Shown one piece after another: positions 4,785 to 44,480 of a DNA stretch of 47,521 nucleotides. The position numbers and the translations under genes were made by a program. The notes under the pieces are model-generated. The model worked only from the letters and a program-made list of their open reading frames with translations, was not told the DNA's origin and ran no database searches. Position 1 is the first letter of the stretch; every line of letters begins with the position of its first letter. Location of the stretch: positions 1 to 47,521 of the forward strand of contig JAGQHJ010000010.1 in assembly GCA_020431915.1 (NCBI GenBank), given 5' to 3'. This DNA comes from Cyanobacteria bacterium HKST-UBA04 (lineage in GTDB: Bacteria > Cyanobacteriota > Vampirovibrionia > Vampirovibrionales > JAGQHJ01).

Positions 4785-5528
4785 TTGGCCAAGCCCCCTT
4801 CACCCAAAGCACAAAAACATGCACAGCGCTGGCAGCGGCTGCGGCAGTTTGACACCGACAAACTTGCCGACGTGGTTGGCCATATCGGCCAGCCGCTTAA
4901 GGGGGTAATCGGCGTGGATGAAGTAGGCCGGGGTAGCCTGGTAGGACCAGTGGTGGCTGCTGCCGTCTGCCTGCCCCACACCCTCTGTGCTACTGAGCAC
5001 GACTGGCTACTGGCCATTGACGACAGCAAAGCCAGCCACCTGAACCGAGCCAAGCGGCTCCGGCTGAAGGACGCCATACAGGCCCATGGGTTGTGGGGCC
5101 TGGGGCAGGCGTCGGTGGAGGAGATTGCCCACCTCAACATCGTCAATGCTTCGCTGCTGGCAGGCCACCGTGCCTTGGCTGCCCTGGCCCAACAGTTTGA
5201 CTGCGACCTAACACATTACTTAACTCTGATGGACGGGCGACATCGTATCCCGCAACACAACGCCCCGCAACTGTCGCAAATAAAAGGCGATGCCCATTCG
5301 GCCGCCATTGCAGCCGCCTCCATTGTGGCCAAGGCCGAACGTGATGCCATGATCGACACCGCCGCCCTGCAGTACCCCGGCTACGGCTGGGAGCAGAATG
5401 CCGGGTACCCCACCCCGGCCCACCAAAAAGCCATTGCCCAGTTGGGCGTTACCCCCATGCACCGGCACAGCTACAAAACCGTACAGGCCGCCTGCCAGGC
5501 CGAAGCCGTGCAGCAAACGCTTTCATAA
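4785..5528 (+). CDS. rnhB: Ribonuclease HII
   Basis: The enzyme cuts the RNA strand of RNA-DNA hybrids and removes misincorporated ribonucleotides from DNA. The conserved GVDEVGRGSLVGPVVAAAV gives catalytic Asp45 and Glu46. DSKASH follows, and LMDG and KGDAHSAAIAAASIVAK provide Asp150 and Asp169, completing the DEDD set. The 247 residues are slightly longer than usual because of an N-terminal basic stretch (about 1-38). The start is a TTG; the nearby ATG is out of frame. A GAGAG sequence lies about 11 nt upstream. It is the third member of the rplS-rbgA-rnhB grouping. Confidence 0.93.
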   Translation: MAKPPSPKAQKHAQRWQRLRQFDTDKLADVVGHIGQPLKGVIGVDEVGRGSLVGPVVAAAVCLPHTLCATEHDWLLAIDDSKASHLNRAKRLRLKDAIQAHGLWGLGQASVEEIAHLNIVNASLLAGHRALAALAQQFDCDLTHYLTLMDGRHRIPQHNAPQLSQIKGDAHSAAIAAASIVAKAERDAMIDTAALQYPGYGWEQNAGYPTPAHQKAIAQLGVTPMHRHSYKTVQAACQAEAVQQTLS

Positions 5529-36890: not shown

Positions 36891-37012
36891 ACCACCCCCT
36901 GCCGGGCCCGAAACCCAACCGGCTCCCCCAGTCGGAGGAGGGGCAAACAGCAACTTGGGCTGTTGAGGGGAGCCGTCATGTTGAAAAATTCCATACCATA
37001 AATACACTCACT

Positions 37013-37063
37013 ACAAAGCCAGGTTAACACCTGACAGCGACAAAGCCAGAATAACACCTGACC
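37013..37063. repeat. Two 27-bp-period direct repeats in the tadA / small-gene divergent region
   Basis: The unit acaaagccag followed by two variable bases and taacacctgac occurs at 37013-37035 and 37040-37062, differing only at those two bases. A third partial copy (aacacctgaac) follows. The phase of 27 bp and location between divergent starts suggest a tandem operator. Confidence 0.6.
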
Positions 37064-37129
37064 AACACCTGAACACCGCCATTGAGTTTCTCTCCAATCA
37101 TAACCGCCCAGGGAGGGCCACCGCCAACC

Positions 37130-37417
37130 ATGATTGTAAAAGCCGCCAAAGCACTGCTCGAAGGTTTCCTGCTCCGTTCTCTCGACGAACGTCCAGTCGG
37201 CCTGCACAACCTTGAATACATGAACGACGAAGATGCCCTTGCCGCCATTGCCCGTCCCACATCACGCAACACCAGCACCCCCCTGTCCACCTCCGTGGAT
37301 CGAATCACCCGGCAAATCGGCCGGCAGCCTGCCCCCGCCTTTAGCCGGGCTCCCAATTTTACCTACCGCTACAGCCAGTTCAGCAGCAAGCGCGTGTTTA
37401 CCACCGCTGGCCGGTAA
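37130..37417 (+). CDS. Small hypothetical protein (about 95 aa)
   Basis: From the ATG at 37130 the product begins MIVKAAKALLEGFLLRSLDE, a likely amphipathic helix, continues with YMNDEDALAAIARPTSR and ends basic and aromatic (RAPNFTYRYSQFSSKRVF). GGGAGGG is about 12 nt upstream. The frame extends to a TTG at 37082. There is no signal peptide or Cys. It is divergent from tadA across the tandem repeat and is followed at 37575 by a strong terminator. No family is recognised. Confidence 0.5.
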   Translation: MIVKAAKALLEGFLLRSLDERPVGLHNLEYMNDEDALAAIARPTSRNTSTPLSTSVDRITRQIGRQPAPAFSRAPNFTYRYSQFSSKRVFTTAGR

Positions 37418-37574
37418 CCCCACTGCACAGCTATAGCCCTCCTCCCTTTTACTCTCTTACCCCAAAACGACCAACCCCACCGGTGTGGATGCCTACAATC
37501 TGTGCTCCTGAACCTCTTGAGCCGGTTGATACCCACACACAGGCTGTTTACTTAATTTCCCCCTATCATCACGT

Positions 37575-37608
37575 TGCAATGAACCTTACCTAGGGTTCAT
37601 TGCATTTT
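37575..37608 (+). terminator. Rho-independent terminator, plus strand
   Basis: The perfect 11-bp stem TGCAATGAACC/GGTTCATTGCA (37575-37585 with 37594-37604) is followed by TTTT. It lies about 155 bases after the small gene and just before the end of the convergent pentapeptide-repeat gene. Confidence 0.8.
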
Positions 37609-37642
37609 CATATCCGGGCCATTAACGGCAGGAACAACGGCC

Positions 37643-38008
37643 CTATTCTTCCAGCTTCATGCCTTTTTGTCGGGGGTCAAAGCCGCGCGAAAAGCGCGTG
37701 GCGTAGTTGTACTTGGCCCCGCTAAAATTGGCCAGCCGAGTTTTGGCCTTCCAAAGCCGGGCCCCGCGCAAATCGGCATCACTCAAGTCGGCCCCGCGCA
37801 AGTCAGTGGCCCATAACTTGGCATCGCGCAGGTTGGCGCCAGCCAAATCGGCCTTTTCCAGGTTGGCGTAACACAGGTCAGCCCCCTCCAGGTCGGCCCC
37901 GTTCAAGCTGGCCTGGCGCAAATCGGCTTTCTGAAGGCACACGCCGTCCGCGTCATCGTATGTCGTCAGGGTCTGGCCGGCCTTGTCCTTAATGGGTGTG
38001 GTGGTCAT
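37643..38008 (-). CDS. Pentapeptide-repeat protein
   Basis: From the ATG at 38008 the protein has 121 residues, of which about 25-97 are A(D/N)LxX-type pentapeptides (KADLR, GADLE, GADLC, YANLE, KADLA, GANLR, TDLRG, GADLS, DADLR). These fold into a right-handed four-sided beta-helix. Such proteins range from DNA mimics that protect gyrase to membrane or sheath proteins, so the role is open. GAGGAG is 7 nt before this ATG; the frame extends 26 codons further. There is no signal peptide or membrane helix. It is divergent from the reverse transcriptase locus. Confidence 0.85.
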   Translation of the reverse strand: MTTTPIKDKAGQTLTTYDDADGVCLQKADLRQASLNGADLEGADLCYANLEKADLAGANLRDAKLWATDLRGADLSDADLRGARLWKAKTRLANFSGAKYNYATRFSRGFDPRQKGMKLEE

Positions 38009-38099
38009 ATGCGGGCTCCTCACGTACTGAAAAAACAACCCCGCCCGCACCATCGGCCTGTACAGAGCCCTTTCATCGGGCACCAACCACCGGCAAGAG

Positions 38100-38345
38100 C
38101 GGGTAGAGAAGAAACAGGAAGATCCATCCGCCTCCTTCCAATGCGGTCTCCTGGTGATGGGAAAGAAGGAGTCAAACCGCAGGTTGATCCTGGGTTAAGC
38201 AGGAGCCGCGGCCTCTTGAAAGGCCCACTCTCAGGTTCTGCGCTGCAAGCGCAGGTTCTCGAGAGTGGCATGCCTCATCCTGACACACAGGCCCAACAGA
38301 GTTGGGGACCGGGGCCAAGCCCGGTTCTTTACTGCTTTCTACTAT
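38100..38345 (+). ncRNA. Candidate structured RNA / leader upstream of the reverse transcriptase
   Basis: This 395-bp divergent intergenic region (38009-38403) folds into a series of stems on the plus strand. They are: TGCGGT plus CTCC (38142-38151) with GGAG and ACCGCA (38168-38171, 38176-38181); GGCCT/AGGCC (38210-38214/38221-38225); CCACTCTC/GAGAGTGG (38225-38232/38261-38268) enclosing CTGCGCT/AGCGCAG; CCCAAC/GTTGGG (38292-38297/38301-38306); and ACCGGG/CCCGGT (38308-38325) followed by TTCTTTACTGCTTTCT, terminator-like. The octamer CAGGTTCT occurs twice inside (38232, 38252). The 113-residue plus-strand frame here looks non-coding. It may be an RNA partner or an attenuator of the reverse transcriptase. 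No retron, DGR or intron family is recognised. Confidence 0.45.
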
Positions 38346-38403
38346 ACTAGAGCTAGCCCGTGATCACAAACCCAAACCCACGATAACCGAAAGCCCCGCC
38401 CTA

Positions 38404-39789
38404 ATGATGACCGGCCCACCCAGCAACCACCCCTTTACCGACTACCTTGACCACCTTGACGTGAACAGCGTGGCCCAGTCGCTTGAGGCCCACTTTTTCG
38501 ACCCCATTCTTGGCCGAGACAAACCCTACACCGGCCCCGACGGCATCGCCTGGCAGCACGTAAAGCCCAACCTGCTGGCCCATGTGGAAACCGTCCGCCA
38601 GCAGCTGCGCAAGGGACGCTTTACCTTTACCCCCTTCCAGCGCACCCCACTCAACTCACTCACCCCGCCAACACCCAACCGCCATGGCAAACCAATGAAA
38701 AAGAAGGGCCCAGACCCCTCCCCCAATAAAGTCCGGGTGGTCTACAAACCCAGTATCCGAAACGTCACGGCACAAACCTGCCTGCTGGCGTATCTGGCAC
38801 CCCGGCTCAACAGCCAGTTTTCGGCAGCCAGCTATGCCTATCAACCCGGCAAGTCGGCCCACGGAGCCGTAAAACGCCTGTGGCGATCCCTGACGGCCGA
38901 CCGACCATGTGGGCTGGTATTTGACATTGTGGGGTTCTTCGACCACCTCGATCATGATCGCCTGCTGGCCGACGCTCAGCAACTGCTGGGCACGGACTGG
39001 GATCCGCTGCTTGAGGCCATGCTGCGCCGCTACCTGAAAACCGGATCGGTGCAACGCCCCCGTAAGCACCAACCCGCGCATGGCCGGCTCAACAGCCAAC
39101 ACCCCAGCCGGGGATACCAGCCACGCCATCAGGGCGTCCCCCAGGGCGGAGCCTTGTCGGCCCTGCTCAGCAATGTGGCCCTGCATGGCCTCGATACCTA
39201 TGCCGCCGGGCACTGGTACGACGTAACGTACATTCGCTATGCCGACAACATTGCCCTGCTCGGCAGCAGCATGGCCCAAGTCAAGGCCTGCTACGACGAC
39301 CTGACCCACGTTCTGGACAACGACTACGGCTTGGCCGTCTACGGTCCCGACGAGGCCGCCAACAGCGACAAGTTTCAGTGGGTTAACCTGGCCAAGCCCA
39401 CCGATGCGCACACAGCCACCCCCTACCTGACGTTCCTGGGGTACCGCATCGAGCGCGACAGTATAAAAATTGCACCGGCCAACGTGGCGGCCTTTAAGCT
39501 GAAGGTGCGCCACCTGTGCCAGGGCTGGCAGCGGCGGTGCGATCCGCCGGAAAAACTGCTTGAACAACTGGGCCGGTTAATTGACGGCCCCGTACAGGCC
39601 CAGACCGGCGAGCCAATGGGGTACGGCTGGCGCCACTACTTCTCGCTGTGCAGCAACCGGGGACAATTCCGCGAATTGTCGGCCTGGCTGGCACGGACGC
39701 TTCAAAAAACCCTTCATGCCACCAAGCATGACACCAACCAAGACATCCCCTACGACACCACCCCCCTGACCCTGACACTGCTTAAATAG
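38404..39789 (+). CDS. Stand-alone reverse transcriptase of group-II-intron type with a YADN active-site box
   Basis: The 461-residue frame shows the RT blocks in order: GPDGIAWQHVKPNLLAHV (about 44-61, RT0-like), QQLRKGRFTFTPFQR, RVVYKPSIRNVTAQ, YAYQPGKSAHGAV (145-157), the motif-A Asp174 in FDIVGFFDHLDHDRLL, HQGVPQGGALSALLSN (242-257), YIRYADNIALL (276-286) and YLTFLGYRI (341-349). In place of YADD it has YADN (279-282; AAC at 39247-39249). A short thumb-like region follows; no HNH endonuclease and no clear maturase domain X are seen. It is not inside a recognisable group II intron. The first of two adjacent ATG codons is used; the ribosome site is poor and the frame runs up to 38302. Candidates are a domesticated group-II-like RT or a defence-type RT. 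Confidence 0.85.
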   Translation: MMTGPPSNHPFTDYLDHLDVNSVAQSLEAHFFDPILGRDKPYTGPDGIAWQHVKPNLLAHVETVRQQLRKGRFTFTPFQRTPLNSLTPPTPNRHGKPMKKKGPDPSPNKVRVVYKPSIRNVTAQTCLLAYLAPRLNSQFSAASYAYQPGKSAHGAVKRLWRSLTADRPCGLVFDIVGFFDHLDHDRLLADAQQLLGTDWDPLLEAMLRRYLKTGSVQRPRKHQPAHGRLNSQHPSRGYQPRHQGVPQGGALSALLSNVALHGLDTYAAGHWYDVTYIRYADNIALLGSSMAQVKACYDDLTHVLDNDYGLAVYGPDEAANSDKFQWVNLAKPTDAHTATPYLTFLGYRIERDSIKIAPANVAAFKLKVRHLCQGWQRRCDPPEKLLEQLGRLIDGPVQAQTGEPMGYGWRHYFSLCSNRGQFRELSAWLARTLQKTLHATKHDTNQDIPYDTTPLTLTLLK

Positions 39790-39812
39790 CCTTTGCCTTC
39801 TTTATACCCGGT

Positions 39813-40964
39813 CTATTCGTCAGGCTTGCCCGTATGGCGCTTGATGGGATGACCCAGCGGTTCGCCGTTGAGCTTGTCGAAAACCCAGCCGACAAGAGGC
39901 TGGTAATGCTTGTGCAACCAGCGGTTAAAGGCCCGGTCAAACTTGGGCAGGAAGGCAATGATAATCAGGCCGTTGAGGGTCATTGGCAAGGCGGTACGAT
40001 GCTTCAGGGGAACATGGTCGTACTTGAGGGCCGACTGCTTGATGTGGTTCATGAAGCTTTGCAGGCGCTCGTGGCGTTGTGCCCACTGCCGGCTGCCGTC
40101 AAGCAGTTTTTTGAAGACGGGACTGACGTGGTAGAGCCCCTTGATTTTGATACCTGGCCCCTTGGGCCAGCGCTTCAGAAACTCGGTTTGCTTGCGGAAG
40201 GACTGAATCAGGAAGACCTCGCGCTGGACCTCGTGCAAAAACTTGCCCATATGAAAATGGCCACCGTCGAGCAGGATTTTAAGCCCCTGGTTGGCAGCTT
40301 CAATGGCAATGGGGGGCACAAAAAGATTGGCGATAAACTGGAAACCGGCCTCATTGGTGCCATTGCGCATGGCAATCCACTTGCGATCACTCTTGGGCAA
40401 CCACGGATCGTGCTTGGCCTGGTTATACCCATGGTAGCCGGCAATACCGGCCGTCACGGTCATATACACCACGCTGAGCAAATCCAGGGGATAATAGGCC
40501 CAGCGAAAATACGGCTTGATGGCCTGGGCAATCTCGTTAAGCAAACCGCCTACCCGCAGGTTGTGCTTAAAGAAGTACAGCAGTTTCTTGGAATGCTCCG
40601 GAACGGGGCAGTTCAGGGTATCCGACACCGTTTGGCTGTTCTGGGCAGCTTCCGGCGTGTCGGCCTTGGGGGACGGTTTGGCAGACGGTTTGACCGTGGA
40701 CGCAACAAACTGCTTGGGTTTACTCAGGACCGAATCCGACGGCGGATTGATCGCCAGCAAGTTGCGGTTAACGGGGATAAACAAGGGCCGGGTGGGCTCG
40801 GCGGCCATCGAGGCGGAGGAAGCAGTCGGGTAGGCATACCCGTAACCGTACCCATACCCAGACCCGTACCCTCCGTAACCTGCTGCGGTACCGGGCGGCC
40901 ATAACCAAGACGGAACGGCCGTAACCGTCATCACCGGCGAAACGAATTGTGTGGGCAGCACCAT
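39813..40964 (-). CDS. Hypothetical protein with Gly/Tyr-rich N-terminus and membrane segments
   Basis: The 383-residue product carries a low-complexity stretch GYGGYGSGYGYGYGYAYP (about 30-47), then a Ser/Pro/Lys-rich linker to about 115. The C-terminal two thirds are more ordered and contain hydrophobic stretches around DLLSVVYMTVTAGIAGYHGY, FIANLFVPPIAIEAA and ALPMTLNGLIIIAFLP, possible membrane helices, between basic segments. No family is recognised. Its stop faces that of the reverse transcriptase with 23 bases between. No good ribosome site is seen before the ATG at 40964; the next ATG (MTVTAVPSW) is an alternative. Confidence 0.6.
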   Translation of the reverse strand: MVLPTQFVSPVMTVTAVPSWLWPPGTAAGYGGYGSGYGYGYGYAYPTASSASMAAEPTRPLFIPVNRNLLAINPPSDSVLSKPKQFVASTVKPSAKPSPKADTPEAAQNSQTVSDTLNCPVPEHSKKLLYFFKHNLRVGGLLNEIAQAIKPYFRWAYYPLDLLSVVYMTVTAGIAGYHGYNQAKHDPWLPKSDRKWIAMRNGTNEAGFQFIANLFVPPIAIEAANQGLKILLDGGHFHMGKFLHEVQREVFLIQSFRKQTEFLKRWPKGPGIKIKGLYHVSPVFKKLLDGSRQWAQRHERLQSFMNHIKQSALKYDHVPLKHRTALPMTLNGLIIIAFLPKFDRAFNRWLHKHYQPLVGWVFDKLNGEPLGHPIKRHTGKPDE

Positions 40965-40981
40965 AAGAAACAGTCGATCCT

Positions 40982-41046
40982 AAAGGGCATCGGCACAGGA
41001 TATTGGCAAAAGGCTTTGGAAAAGGGCTTTGGCAAAGGGCATCGGC
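40982..41046. repeat. Short direct repeats upstream of the 383-aa gene
   Basis: AAAGGGCATCGGC occurs at 40982-40994 and 41034-41046, with related AAAGGGCTTTGGC words between. The 249-bp region to the carB end holds no gene. Confidence 0.4.
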
Positions 41047-41213
41047 GGATTTGCCGGACTAGGCGCATTGAACGGGCAGCGCGAATTGCGTGTAAAACAT
41101 CCCCGTTGTAACAGCCCGGACTACGGGCAGTCTAGGATAAACAGGTATCCGTAAATACCTCTTGTAAAGGGAATATTACTGTTACGCCCGCGTGCTCAAG
41201 CCCGTGCCAACGG

Positions 41214-44200
41214 CTAGGCCGTTACCACCGCCCGACCACTCAAGCCCAGGTAATCCTGCAGGCTGGTTACGTCAAAGTCGTGGTTGCGCAACTCGACAAT
41301 GGCTTCGAGCATAGCCTGGGCACCGGCCATGGTCGTCATCATTGGCACGGCATGGGCTACGGCCGCCTTGCGAATATAGGAATCATCCTGCAAGGCCCCT
41401 TCACCAATGGGGGTGTTAATAACCAACTGCACCGCCCCTTCCTCAATCATGCTTTCGGCATGGGGACGACCTTCGGATTTTTTGTTGATGACCGTCACAG
41501 CCAGGCCGGCCTGTTGCAACACCTGGGCCGTGCCCGTGGTAGAAACCAGACTAAACCCAAGGTCCACCAGTTGCCGGGCAATGTCGACGGCATGGGGTTT
41601 GTCGAAGTCGTTGACACTGATAAACACGTTGCCCGACATCGGGATGGTCGAGCCGGCAGACACCTGGGCCTTGGCAAAAGCCAGGGCGGCGGTTTTGTCC
41701 AAGCCCATCACCTCGCCGGTACTCTTCATCTCGGGCCCCAGCTTCGGATCGGCCCCCCGAAACTTGTTGAAGGGAAAGACCGGTCCCTTGACCGCCACGT
41801 AGTTGCTGGGCAGCACCGGCACCAGATGCGCCACGTCGGCCAGCGATCGACCGAGCATGATTTCCGTGGCCATTTTAACCAAGGGCACCCCGGTGCATTT
41901 GCAGATGAAGGGAACCGTTCGGCTGGCACGGGGATTGACCTCAATGACATACAGCGCCCCGTCCTTGACGGCAAACTGAATATTGAGCAAGCCACGCACG
42001 TTCAGACGTCGGGCCAACTGTTCGGTGGCTTGTACCACCTGGTCATGCAAGGCCTGGGGCAGTCGCTGCGGTGGCCACAGGCTGGTACTGTCACCGCTGT
42101 GGATACCCGCGTGCTCGATATGCTCAAGAATACCGCCAATGTACGTATCGGTCCCGTCACTGACGGCATCCACATCAAGCTCCATGGCTTCCTCAAGGAA
42201 GCGCTCAATCAGGATGGGGTAATCCGGCTCCACCCGGACCACCTCGGTGACGTAGTCGCGCAGGCTGGCTTCCGAATACAAAACCCGCATGGCCCGACCA
42301 CCCAGAATATAGCTGGGCCGGACAATCAGGGGATAGCCGACTTGTCGGGCCACGGCAAAAGCCTCGTCTGCCGACCGCGCCGTACCGGAGGCCGGGGCCT
42401 TCAGGCCCAACTCCTTGAGCACGGCACTGAAACGCTGGCGATCCTCGGCCTCGTCAATGCTGTCGAGCGAGGTACCCAGCAACGGGTAACCGGCGTCATG
42501 GATATGCTTGGCCAGCTTCAACGGGGTTTGGCCGCCCAACTGCACCACAACACCCCGAGGCTGTTCTTGCGCCAGAATGTTCAGTATCCGCTCGGGCGAC
42601 AGGGGTTCGAAATACAGCCGGTCGCTGATGTCGTAATCCGTCGACACGGTCTCGGGGTTGGAGTTGACCATCACCGCTTTCAACCCGGCCTGCTGCAGGG
42701 AAAAGGCCGCATGGACACAGCAGTAGTCAAACTCAATGCCCTGCCCAATCCGGTTGGGCCCGCCGCCGATAATCACAACCCGATCACTCGATGCGGGGCC
42801 ACCGGTCGATTCAAAGATCGGGGCCTCCTGCAGGCTGCTGGCAAAGGTGGAGTAGTAATAGGGGGTGGAAGCGGCAAACTCGCCGGCACAAGTGTCAACG
42901 GCATTAAACACCGGGGCAATACCCAGTTCGGCCATCCGGCGGGCCAACTGTTTATCCAGGTCGGGGGCCGGCGCCAGCAGCTTAAGGATATGGGCCTGGC
43001 TGAATCCTTGTCGTTTTGCCTTGCGCAGCAGCTCGTCGTCCAGCTTGCTTAACGGGCAGTGCCACAAGGCACGCTCCGTTTCGACCAGATCGCGCATGTT
43101 GTTGATAAACCAGGGGTCAATACCGGTAAGGGTATACAGCTCGTCAGTCGACCAGTTCTCTTGCAGGGCGTGGTAAACCCAACGCACGCGATCGGAGGAG
43201 GGATGCTTAAGCTTGGCCTCCAGTTCCTGGCGACTGAGTTTGCAAGCCGGAAAATGAAACCCTTCCAGCCCCGTTTCCAGGCTTTGCAGGGCCTTCTGGA
43301 AACTTTCCTGAAAAGTGCGACCGATGGCCATGGCCTCGCCAACGGATTTCATTTGCGGCGACAGGGTGTCGGGCGACCCGGCGAATTTCTCGAAGGCAAA
43401 GCGGGGAATTTTGGTTACCACGTAATCAATGGCCGGTTCAAAGCTGGCCGGGGTGCTTCGGGTAATATCGTTCTCGATTTCGTCGAGGGTCATGCCCACC
43501 GCCAGCTTGGCGCTGATCTTGGCAATGGGAACCCCCGTGGCCTTGCTGACCAGGGCCGAACTGCGCGACACGCGCGGGTTCATCTCGATAACAACCACCC
43601 GGCCCGTCTGCGGATGAATGGCAAACTGGATGTTGCAGCCCCCGGCATCAACCCCCACGGCCCGAATGATATCGATGCTGGCGTTTCGCAGCACATGGTA
43701 CTCGCGATCGGACAACGTCATGGCCGGGGCCACCGTAATGCTGTCGCCGGTATGGATACCCATCGGGTCAAGGTTCTCAACGCTGCAGACAATCACCACG
43801 TTATCGCGACCGTCGCGCATCACCTCAAACTCGTACTCTTTCCAACCCAGGGCGCTCTCTTCCATCAGCACCTGCTTGATGGGCGACTGGGCCAGGGCAT
43901 GACTGGCGGCGGCTTCAAGCTCGCGCTCGTCAAACACCACCCCACCACCGGATCCGCCCAGGGTAAAGGCCGTGCGCAAAATCAGCGGGTATCCCAAATC
44001 AGCGGCAATGGATCTTGCCTCGTCGACCGAACCGGCCACTTCGGAGCGCAGCACACCCAACCCCAGATCCTCGACCAGGTGCTTAAAGGCCGACCGATCC
44101 TCGGCCGTATGGATGGCGGACTCGTTGGCACCAATCAAGGTCACGTTGTATCGGGCCAACACCCCCTGGTCCTTTAGGGCAAAGGCCAGGTTCAGGGCCG

Positions 44201-44480
44201 TCTGCCCCCCCATGGTCGGCAACAGGGCGTCAGGGCGCTCCGTATCGATAATCTTGGTCAGAACCTCGACGGTCAACGGCTCGATGTAGGTCCGGGTCGC
44301 CAGGTTCGGGTCGGTCATAATGGTGGCGGGGTTGGAGTTAACCAGCACCACCTCGTACCCTTCATGCATCAGGGCACGGCAAGCCTGTGAACCGGAATAG
44401 TCAAACTCGCAGGCCTGGCCTATTACAATGGGGCCGGCCCCGATGATGAGGATGCGTTTAATGTCGGTTCGTTTGGGCAT
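41214..44480 (-). CDS. carB: Carbamoyl-phosphate synthase, large subunit
   Basis: CarB makes carbamoyl phosphate from ammonia (delivered by CarA), bicarbonate and two ATP for pyrimidine and arginine synthesis. The two homologous ATP-grasp halves are evident: [18 protein letters not shown] and [22 protein letters not shown], then [20 protein letters not shown] and [17 protein letters not shown]. Motifs [16 protein letters not shown] and [16 protein letters not shown] close each half. A C-terminal MGS-like allosteric domain (about 940-1080) follows. At 1088 residues the protein is full length. The ribosome site before the ATG is weak. It is divergent from carA rather than downstream of it. Confidence 0.97.

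Follow-up and report, generated by a model that had tools for sequence, protein, structure and literature searches.

A stand-alone reverse transcriptase with a YADN catalytic box in Cyanobacteria bacterium HKST-UBA04

Can a reverse transcriptase (RT) whose catalytic box ends in asparagine rather than aspartate still be a working enzyme, and with which RTs does it belong? The question is raised by a gene on contig JAGQHJ010000010.1 of Cyanobacteria bacterium HKST-UBA04, where the stretch of 47,521 nucleotides analysed here (the window) encodes an RT with a YADN box.

The gene and its catalytic box

The features of the RT gene are as follows.

38404..39789, + strand: RT gene, an open frame of 461 amino acids
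38923..38925, + strand: codon GAC of Asp174 in motif A (FDIVGFF), read from the sequence; the column is invariant in alignments A3 and A5
39043..39141, + strand: long RT3-RT4 stretch, approximately residues 214-246, placed by a phmmer alignment to 6ar1
39238..39249, + strand: Y-A-D-N box, residues 279-282, with the Asn282 codon AAC at 39247-39249

An earlier sequence-only reading had described a YADN RT at this position with its blocks in place, and the frame, Asp174, QGGALS (residues 247-252), Y279-A280-D281-N282 with its AAC codon, and FLGYRI were all confirmed in the sequence. The protein matches Pfam RVT_1 with an E value of 4.5e-17, above the cut-off, and Pfam identified no HNH domain in it. 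A longer version starting at an in-frame TTG at 38302 is unsupported by the alignment to relatives. Third-position GC is 0.758 in the RT gene and 0.71-0.76 in its neighbours; thus, the coding composition is native and gives no hint of very recent import. The 2.7 Mb draft genome yielded no second RT.

In one profile alignment of 157 distinct homologous RTs, the last box residue is Asp in all but four proteins. Two of the four are plainly misaligned; the window RT and a protein designated L046 make up the remainder. The box reads YADD in 123 of these RTs, and YVDD, YGDD, YMDD, FADD or similar in the others. Judged from this alignment, YADN in the window RT is a rare variant, more than chance. 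L046, which is unrelated to the window RT, is a group II intron protein whose HNH domain is truncated (L072, 2987-4633, + strand); an intron domain V/VI lies 3' of its ORF at 4877-4953, and the neighbouring intron protein of L072 (5901-7607) has YADD. Since the HNH domain of L046 is cut short and YADD stands in the next intron copy, a seemingly decaying copy carries the same change. On these comparisons, Asn282 is unshared by the nearest relatives of the window RT, and the one other protein carrying it looks as if it were decaying.

Conservation was scored by leaving the window RT out of one alignment and taking the 31 columns in which the other 29 rows show at least 90% conservation. The window RT keeps 26 of these 31 positions, including the metal-binding Asp174 and Asp281, and departs at five (I83L, K104D, L113V, R147Q and D282N), so that the earlier description of the motifs as otherwise undamaged was slightly too strong. 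K104D adjoins an insertion and is probably an alignment effect, whereas R147Q and D282N are losses of charged residues at reliably aligned positions. L046 loses only D282 among the 31.

These two charged changes agree with recent inactivation, which we regard as a serious contender: an acquired stand-alone RT, of which this gene is the last copy, would have lost the second aspartate of the box and be drifting with its frame unbroken. The truncated HNH of the sole other YADN protein points the same way, as do the lack of a recognised partner gene or detected RNA and the absence of an RT match in the three other family genomes examined. The sequence-only reading had taken the intact frame to exclude decay, which is unsupported given that the nearest homologues have YADD and the other YADN stands in a truncated-HNH protein. 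Against inactivation, the window RT has kept its frame, 26 of the 31 conserved positions and its predicted fold despite very low identity to any relative, so selection acted on it through most of its divergence.

Another origin of the asparagine would be a one-base mistake in sequencing or assembly, or else a private polymorphism, in a lineage that really has YADD. AAC differs from GAC by one base, the nearest relatives are all YADD, and the source genome is a fragmented draft (180 contigs, 87.65% complete); however, the gene carries no other sign of error and its frame is intact over 461 codons, and we consider this explanation improbable.

Predicted fold and relationships

The AlphaFold model of the window RT, built with 25 sequences, has a mean pLDDT of 85 and a pTM of 0.83, with low confidence in the RT3-RT4 stretch (residues 221-240). 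In the Foldseek ranking the group II intron RT GsI-IIC came first (TM 0.65/0.71), followed by DRT9 and the G2L4 RT. The likeness to RTs of the GsI-IIC type (PDB 6AR1, 7K9Y) covers the fold from RT0 to the thumb, and group_II_RT_mat is the best NCBIfam match; the differences are the YADN box, the lack of an intron RNA, and a longer RT3-RT4 stretch (RT3a), which exceeds that of GsI-IIC RT by 17 residues in the phmmer alignment to 6ar1. The group II model TIGR04416 of NCBIfam gave 128.6 bits, below its curated cut-off of 300. The predicted fold and the sequence together place the window RT, within the RT tree, on the side of the group II and class 2 UG RTs.

Several assignments to known systems were rejected. 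As a group II intron protein the window RT fails, with no Rfam match in the window and a convergent gene 23 bases past its stop codon; the claim that it lies outside such an intron therefore stood. As the RT of a diversity-generating retroelement (DGR) it has QGGALS as its RT4 motif, as opposed to the IG..TSQ type, and no long repeat pair lies near it (37000-41200). A retron is contradicted by a retron_St85 score of 33 bits against a cut-off of 235 and by the lack of an Rfam match, and an RT-CRISPR origin by the lack of a Cas1 fusion and of neighbouring cas genes.

Among stand-alone RTs, UG17 (DRT10; PMC12632851) resembles the window RT in that its profile matches residues 39-436 with 87 bits (2.6e-25), but this profile has no curated cut-off and also scores 156 bits on the RT-Cas1 protein L040, so it does not discriminate. 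Relatives of the window RT are likewise stand-alone, three of them with an upstream structured RNA. In contrast to DRT10, there is no SLATT gene beside the window RT, no related RNA was detected in the window, and the box is YADN as opposed to YVDD. The domesticated G2L4 RT (PMC12337344; PDB 9D4S, 9D5X) is also free-standing and group II-like, departs from YxDD as well and carries additional RT3a residues; its TM to the window RT model is 0.63/0.71. However, in G2L4 it is the second residue of the box that is changed (YIDD) and both aspartates are kept, and it is not the nearest match by sequence.

The protein matches GIIM (maturase domain X) weakly (17 bits, cut-off 23). This residual match and the altered box in an otherwise folded RT would suit a protein of RT fold that no longer catalyses and is retained to bind RNA or DNA, like maturases whose RT activity was lost. 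We judge such a role unlikely, since Asp174 and Asp281, which are needed for metal binding, are retained, and no RNA partner was identified.

Searches for relatives returned no close homologue, with identities mostly of 20-36%. The best matches in a collection of 84,980 species were only 24-32% identical, in a pattern search that needs exact 8-mers and could miss relatives at roughly 40%. Across the class (382 genomes) and the phylum (292 genomes) identities were mostly 22-36%, with short local stretches up to 41%; when the class was searched again with the family profile, the query, itself part of the profile, scored 504 bits and the next best match 165. Identities were 22-31% to phages and under 60% to plasmids. 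Viral contigs gave no match with the protein alone and matches of 20-31% with the profile.

In the first tree the window RT stood beside L039, a cyanobacterial RT, from which a clade of stand-alone, intron-less RTs was traced (L070/L039, L073, L074, L084 and L114); L084 gave the best phmmer score among the relatives. The window RT is sister to the clade of L039, L073, L074, L084 and L114 with support of 85/69 and a branch length of 1.95. In AU tests its placement with the L002 type was rejected (p 0.012), and placements with C-like (p 0.139), CRISPR (p 0.111) and HNH-bearing group II RTs (p 0.088) were not. This weakly supported sister position, drawn from sequence comparison, is a lead rather than a result because the branch is long. 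The clade, like the window RT, shows QGG-x-[LI]-S-[GA] where other RTs usually have QGG-x-x-S-P, and L070, L073 and L114 share its long RT3-RT4 stretch. Its members differ from the window RT in being only 22-27% identical to it and in having YADD throughout. The sequence-only reading had named YADD in all nearest homologues, with this copy alone mutated, as evidence against its proposal; the comparisons formally returned that pattern, although at identities this low.

L070 adjoins genes that by inspection read as DarT and DarG, L073 is carried by a Nostoc plasmid, where type I restriction genes and a DarT-family fragment adjoin it, L074 lies on a Thioflavicoccus plasmid near BREX genes, and L114 on a viral contig. 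The suggestion of a domesticated or defence-type RT is borne out to the extent that the nearest clade is stand-alone with several members beside defence genes, but the kinship to that clade is weak. Same-clade stand-alone RTs occur in the viral contigs L113 and L114 (4899-6404, + strand), with an integrase-like gene upstream.

Upstream RNA and neighbouring genes

The RT gene is flanked as follows.

37643-38086, - strand: pentapeptide-repeat gene (Pfam), divergent from the RT
38087..38403, + strand: stem-loop-rich intergenic stretch between the pentapeptide gene and the RT, fold z-score -2.2
39813-40964, - strand: protein of 383 amino acids, convergent with the RT, no family match

The 317 bases upstream of the RT are folded more stably than most shuffled versions (1 of 100 shuffles was as stable), and no relative of this stretch was found in the order. 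Within it, the CAAACCCAAACCCA repeat (38367-38380) was set aside as a template: 52 of 1000 shuffles match it, and it sits within the alternative reading frame.

In L070, L073 and L084 a clearly conserved, covarying RNA lies directly upstream of the RT, which in these loci is a cyanobacterial one. RNAalifold assigned it 60 pairs, 13 of them with compensatory changes, from three sequences of which two are closely related, and the RNA model scores 184-244 bits on the three loci from which it was built. It found no match in the window (best hit 2.8 bits, E 0.33, filters off), nor in L074 or L114. Thus, the kinship to the clade comes without a demonstrated shared RNA, and neither folding nor the RNA-model searches established an upstream template RNA for the window RT. 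The RNAs are approximately 220-240 nt long (L070 7234-7471, - strand; L073 5757-5974, + strand; L084 1149-1389, + strand), with a 3' pseudoknot recognised by eye. That of L084 holds ATCAT-GG-ATCAT, an A-B-A' layout resembling the DRT10 template. Together with their RTs, these RNAs possibly form an undescribed DRT10-like system.

The window reads from its translations as a housekeeping region, with class I aldolase, glyceraldehyde-3-phosphate dehydrogenase, tRNA adenosine deaminase and the large chain of carbamoyl phosphate synthase. No tRNA, Rfam match or recognised defence gene was found in the window, and no DGR-type long repeat pair in 37000-41200; as the earlier reading had stated, HNH and DGR-type repeats are lacking. 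The RT is single-domain, and the window ORFs read as housekeeping rather than cas genes. The convergent gene, on the opposite strand, terminates 23 bases beyond the RT stop. Its 383-residue product contains a Gly/Tyr-rich N-terminal region as well as hydrophobic stretches, and no homologue was found when 17 other genomes of the order were searched.

The carbamoyl phosphate synthase large chain, assigned by inspection (41214-44480, - strand), is matched only weakly and in part (23-28%) in the three other family genomes, even though completeness exceeds 90% in two of them. Family synteny around an empty RT site was accordingly abandoned: the matches to this downstream carB-like gene are too weak to define a comparable site.

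Chemistry of the second aspartate and possible function

Mononegavirus polymerases carry a GDN box. The earlier argument from them, that asparagine can be tolerated, is sound in principle, as the Ty1 RT illustrates. Its D211N variant, altered at the same residue, still polymerises in vitro with a 223-fold lower k_pol and a preference for Mn2+, but transposition in vivo is abolished; changes of D129 and D210 abolish activity (PMC2148107). The second aspartate faces away from the active site in G2L4, GII and HIV RT structures (PMC12337344). Early work on retroviral RTs, as cited in PMC2148107, reported severe disruption of function when any of the three aspartates was changed, and the HIV D185N/D186N double mutant is dead, a result that does not isolate the effect of the second residue (PMC5498913). 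The activity of Ty1 D211N and the outward-facing second aspartate therefore make a weak but real polymerase plausible, and a dead one too. By this analogy, altered chemistry of the window RT is possible, and inactivation about as likely.

Our preferred reading, held tentatively, is a free-standing, single-copy RT of the group II and class 2 UG part of the tree that has acquired D282N and still works in weakened form. Asp174 and Asp281 would still hold the metals, and the enzyme would retain slow, Mn2+-favouring DNA synthesis and serve a cellular or defence role on some template. The long RT3-RT4 stretch could, by analogy only, gate the active site, as the G2L4 RT has an RT3a plug there (PMC12337344). 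The intact 461-codon frame, the native codon composition, the 26 conserved positions and the confident model argue for a working variant, as do the genes beside the weakly supported nearest clade (DarTG, type I restriction, BREX) or its phage contig. Against it, Asn282 is shared only with the unrelated, truncated L046, R147Q fits weakening selection, the clade support is 85/69, the RNA of the kin and a defence gene were not recognised in the window, and Ty1 D211N does not transpose in vivo.

The early retroviral results cited in PMC2148107 favour inactivation, whereas the activity of Ty1 D211N in vitro speaks against it. A weakened working enzyme and an inactivated one are thus about equally probable, with a non-catalytic role and a base error behind. 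There is a slim chance that the window RT represents an undescribed stand-alone bacterial lineage in which YADN is fixed and functional, as an Mn2+-preferring counterpart of the mononegavirus GDN.

As it stands, the window RT is a rare variant known from a single sequence. Should YADN turn out to be both fixed and active, this would be a natural example of an RT that works with one carboxylate fewer in its catalytic box, and would join the few known YxDD departures among domesticated RTs, of which the YIDD of G2L4 is one.
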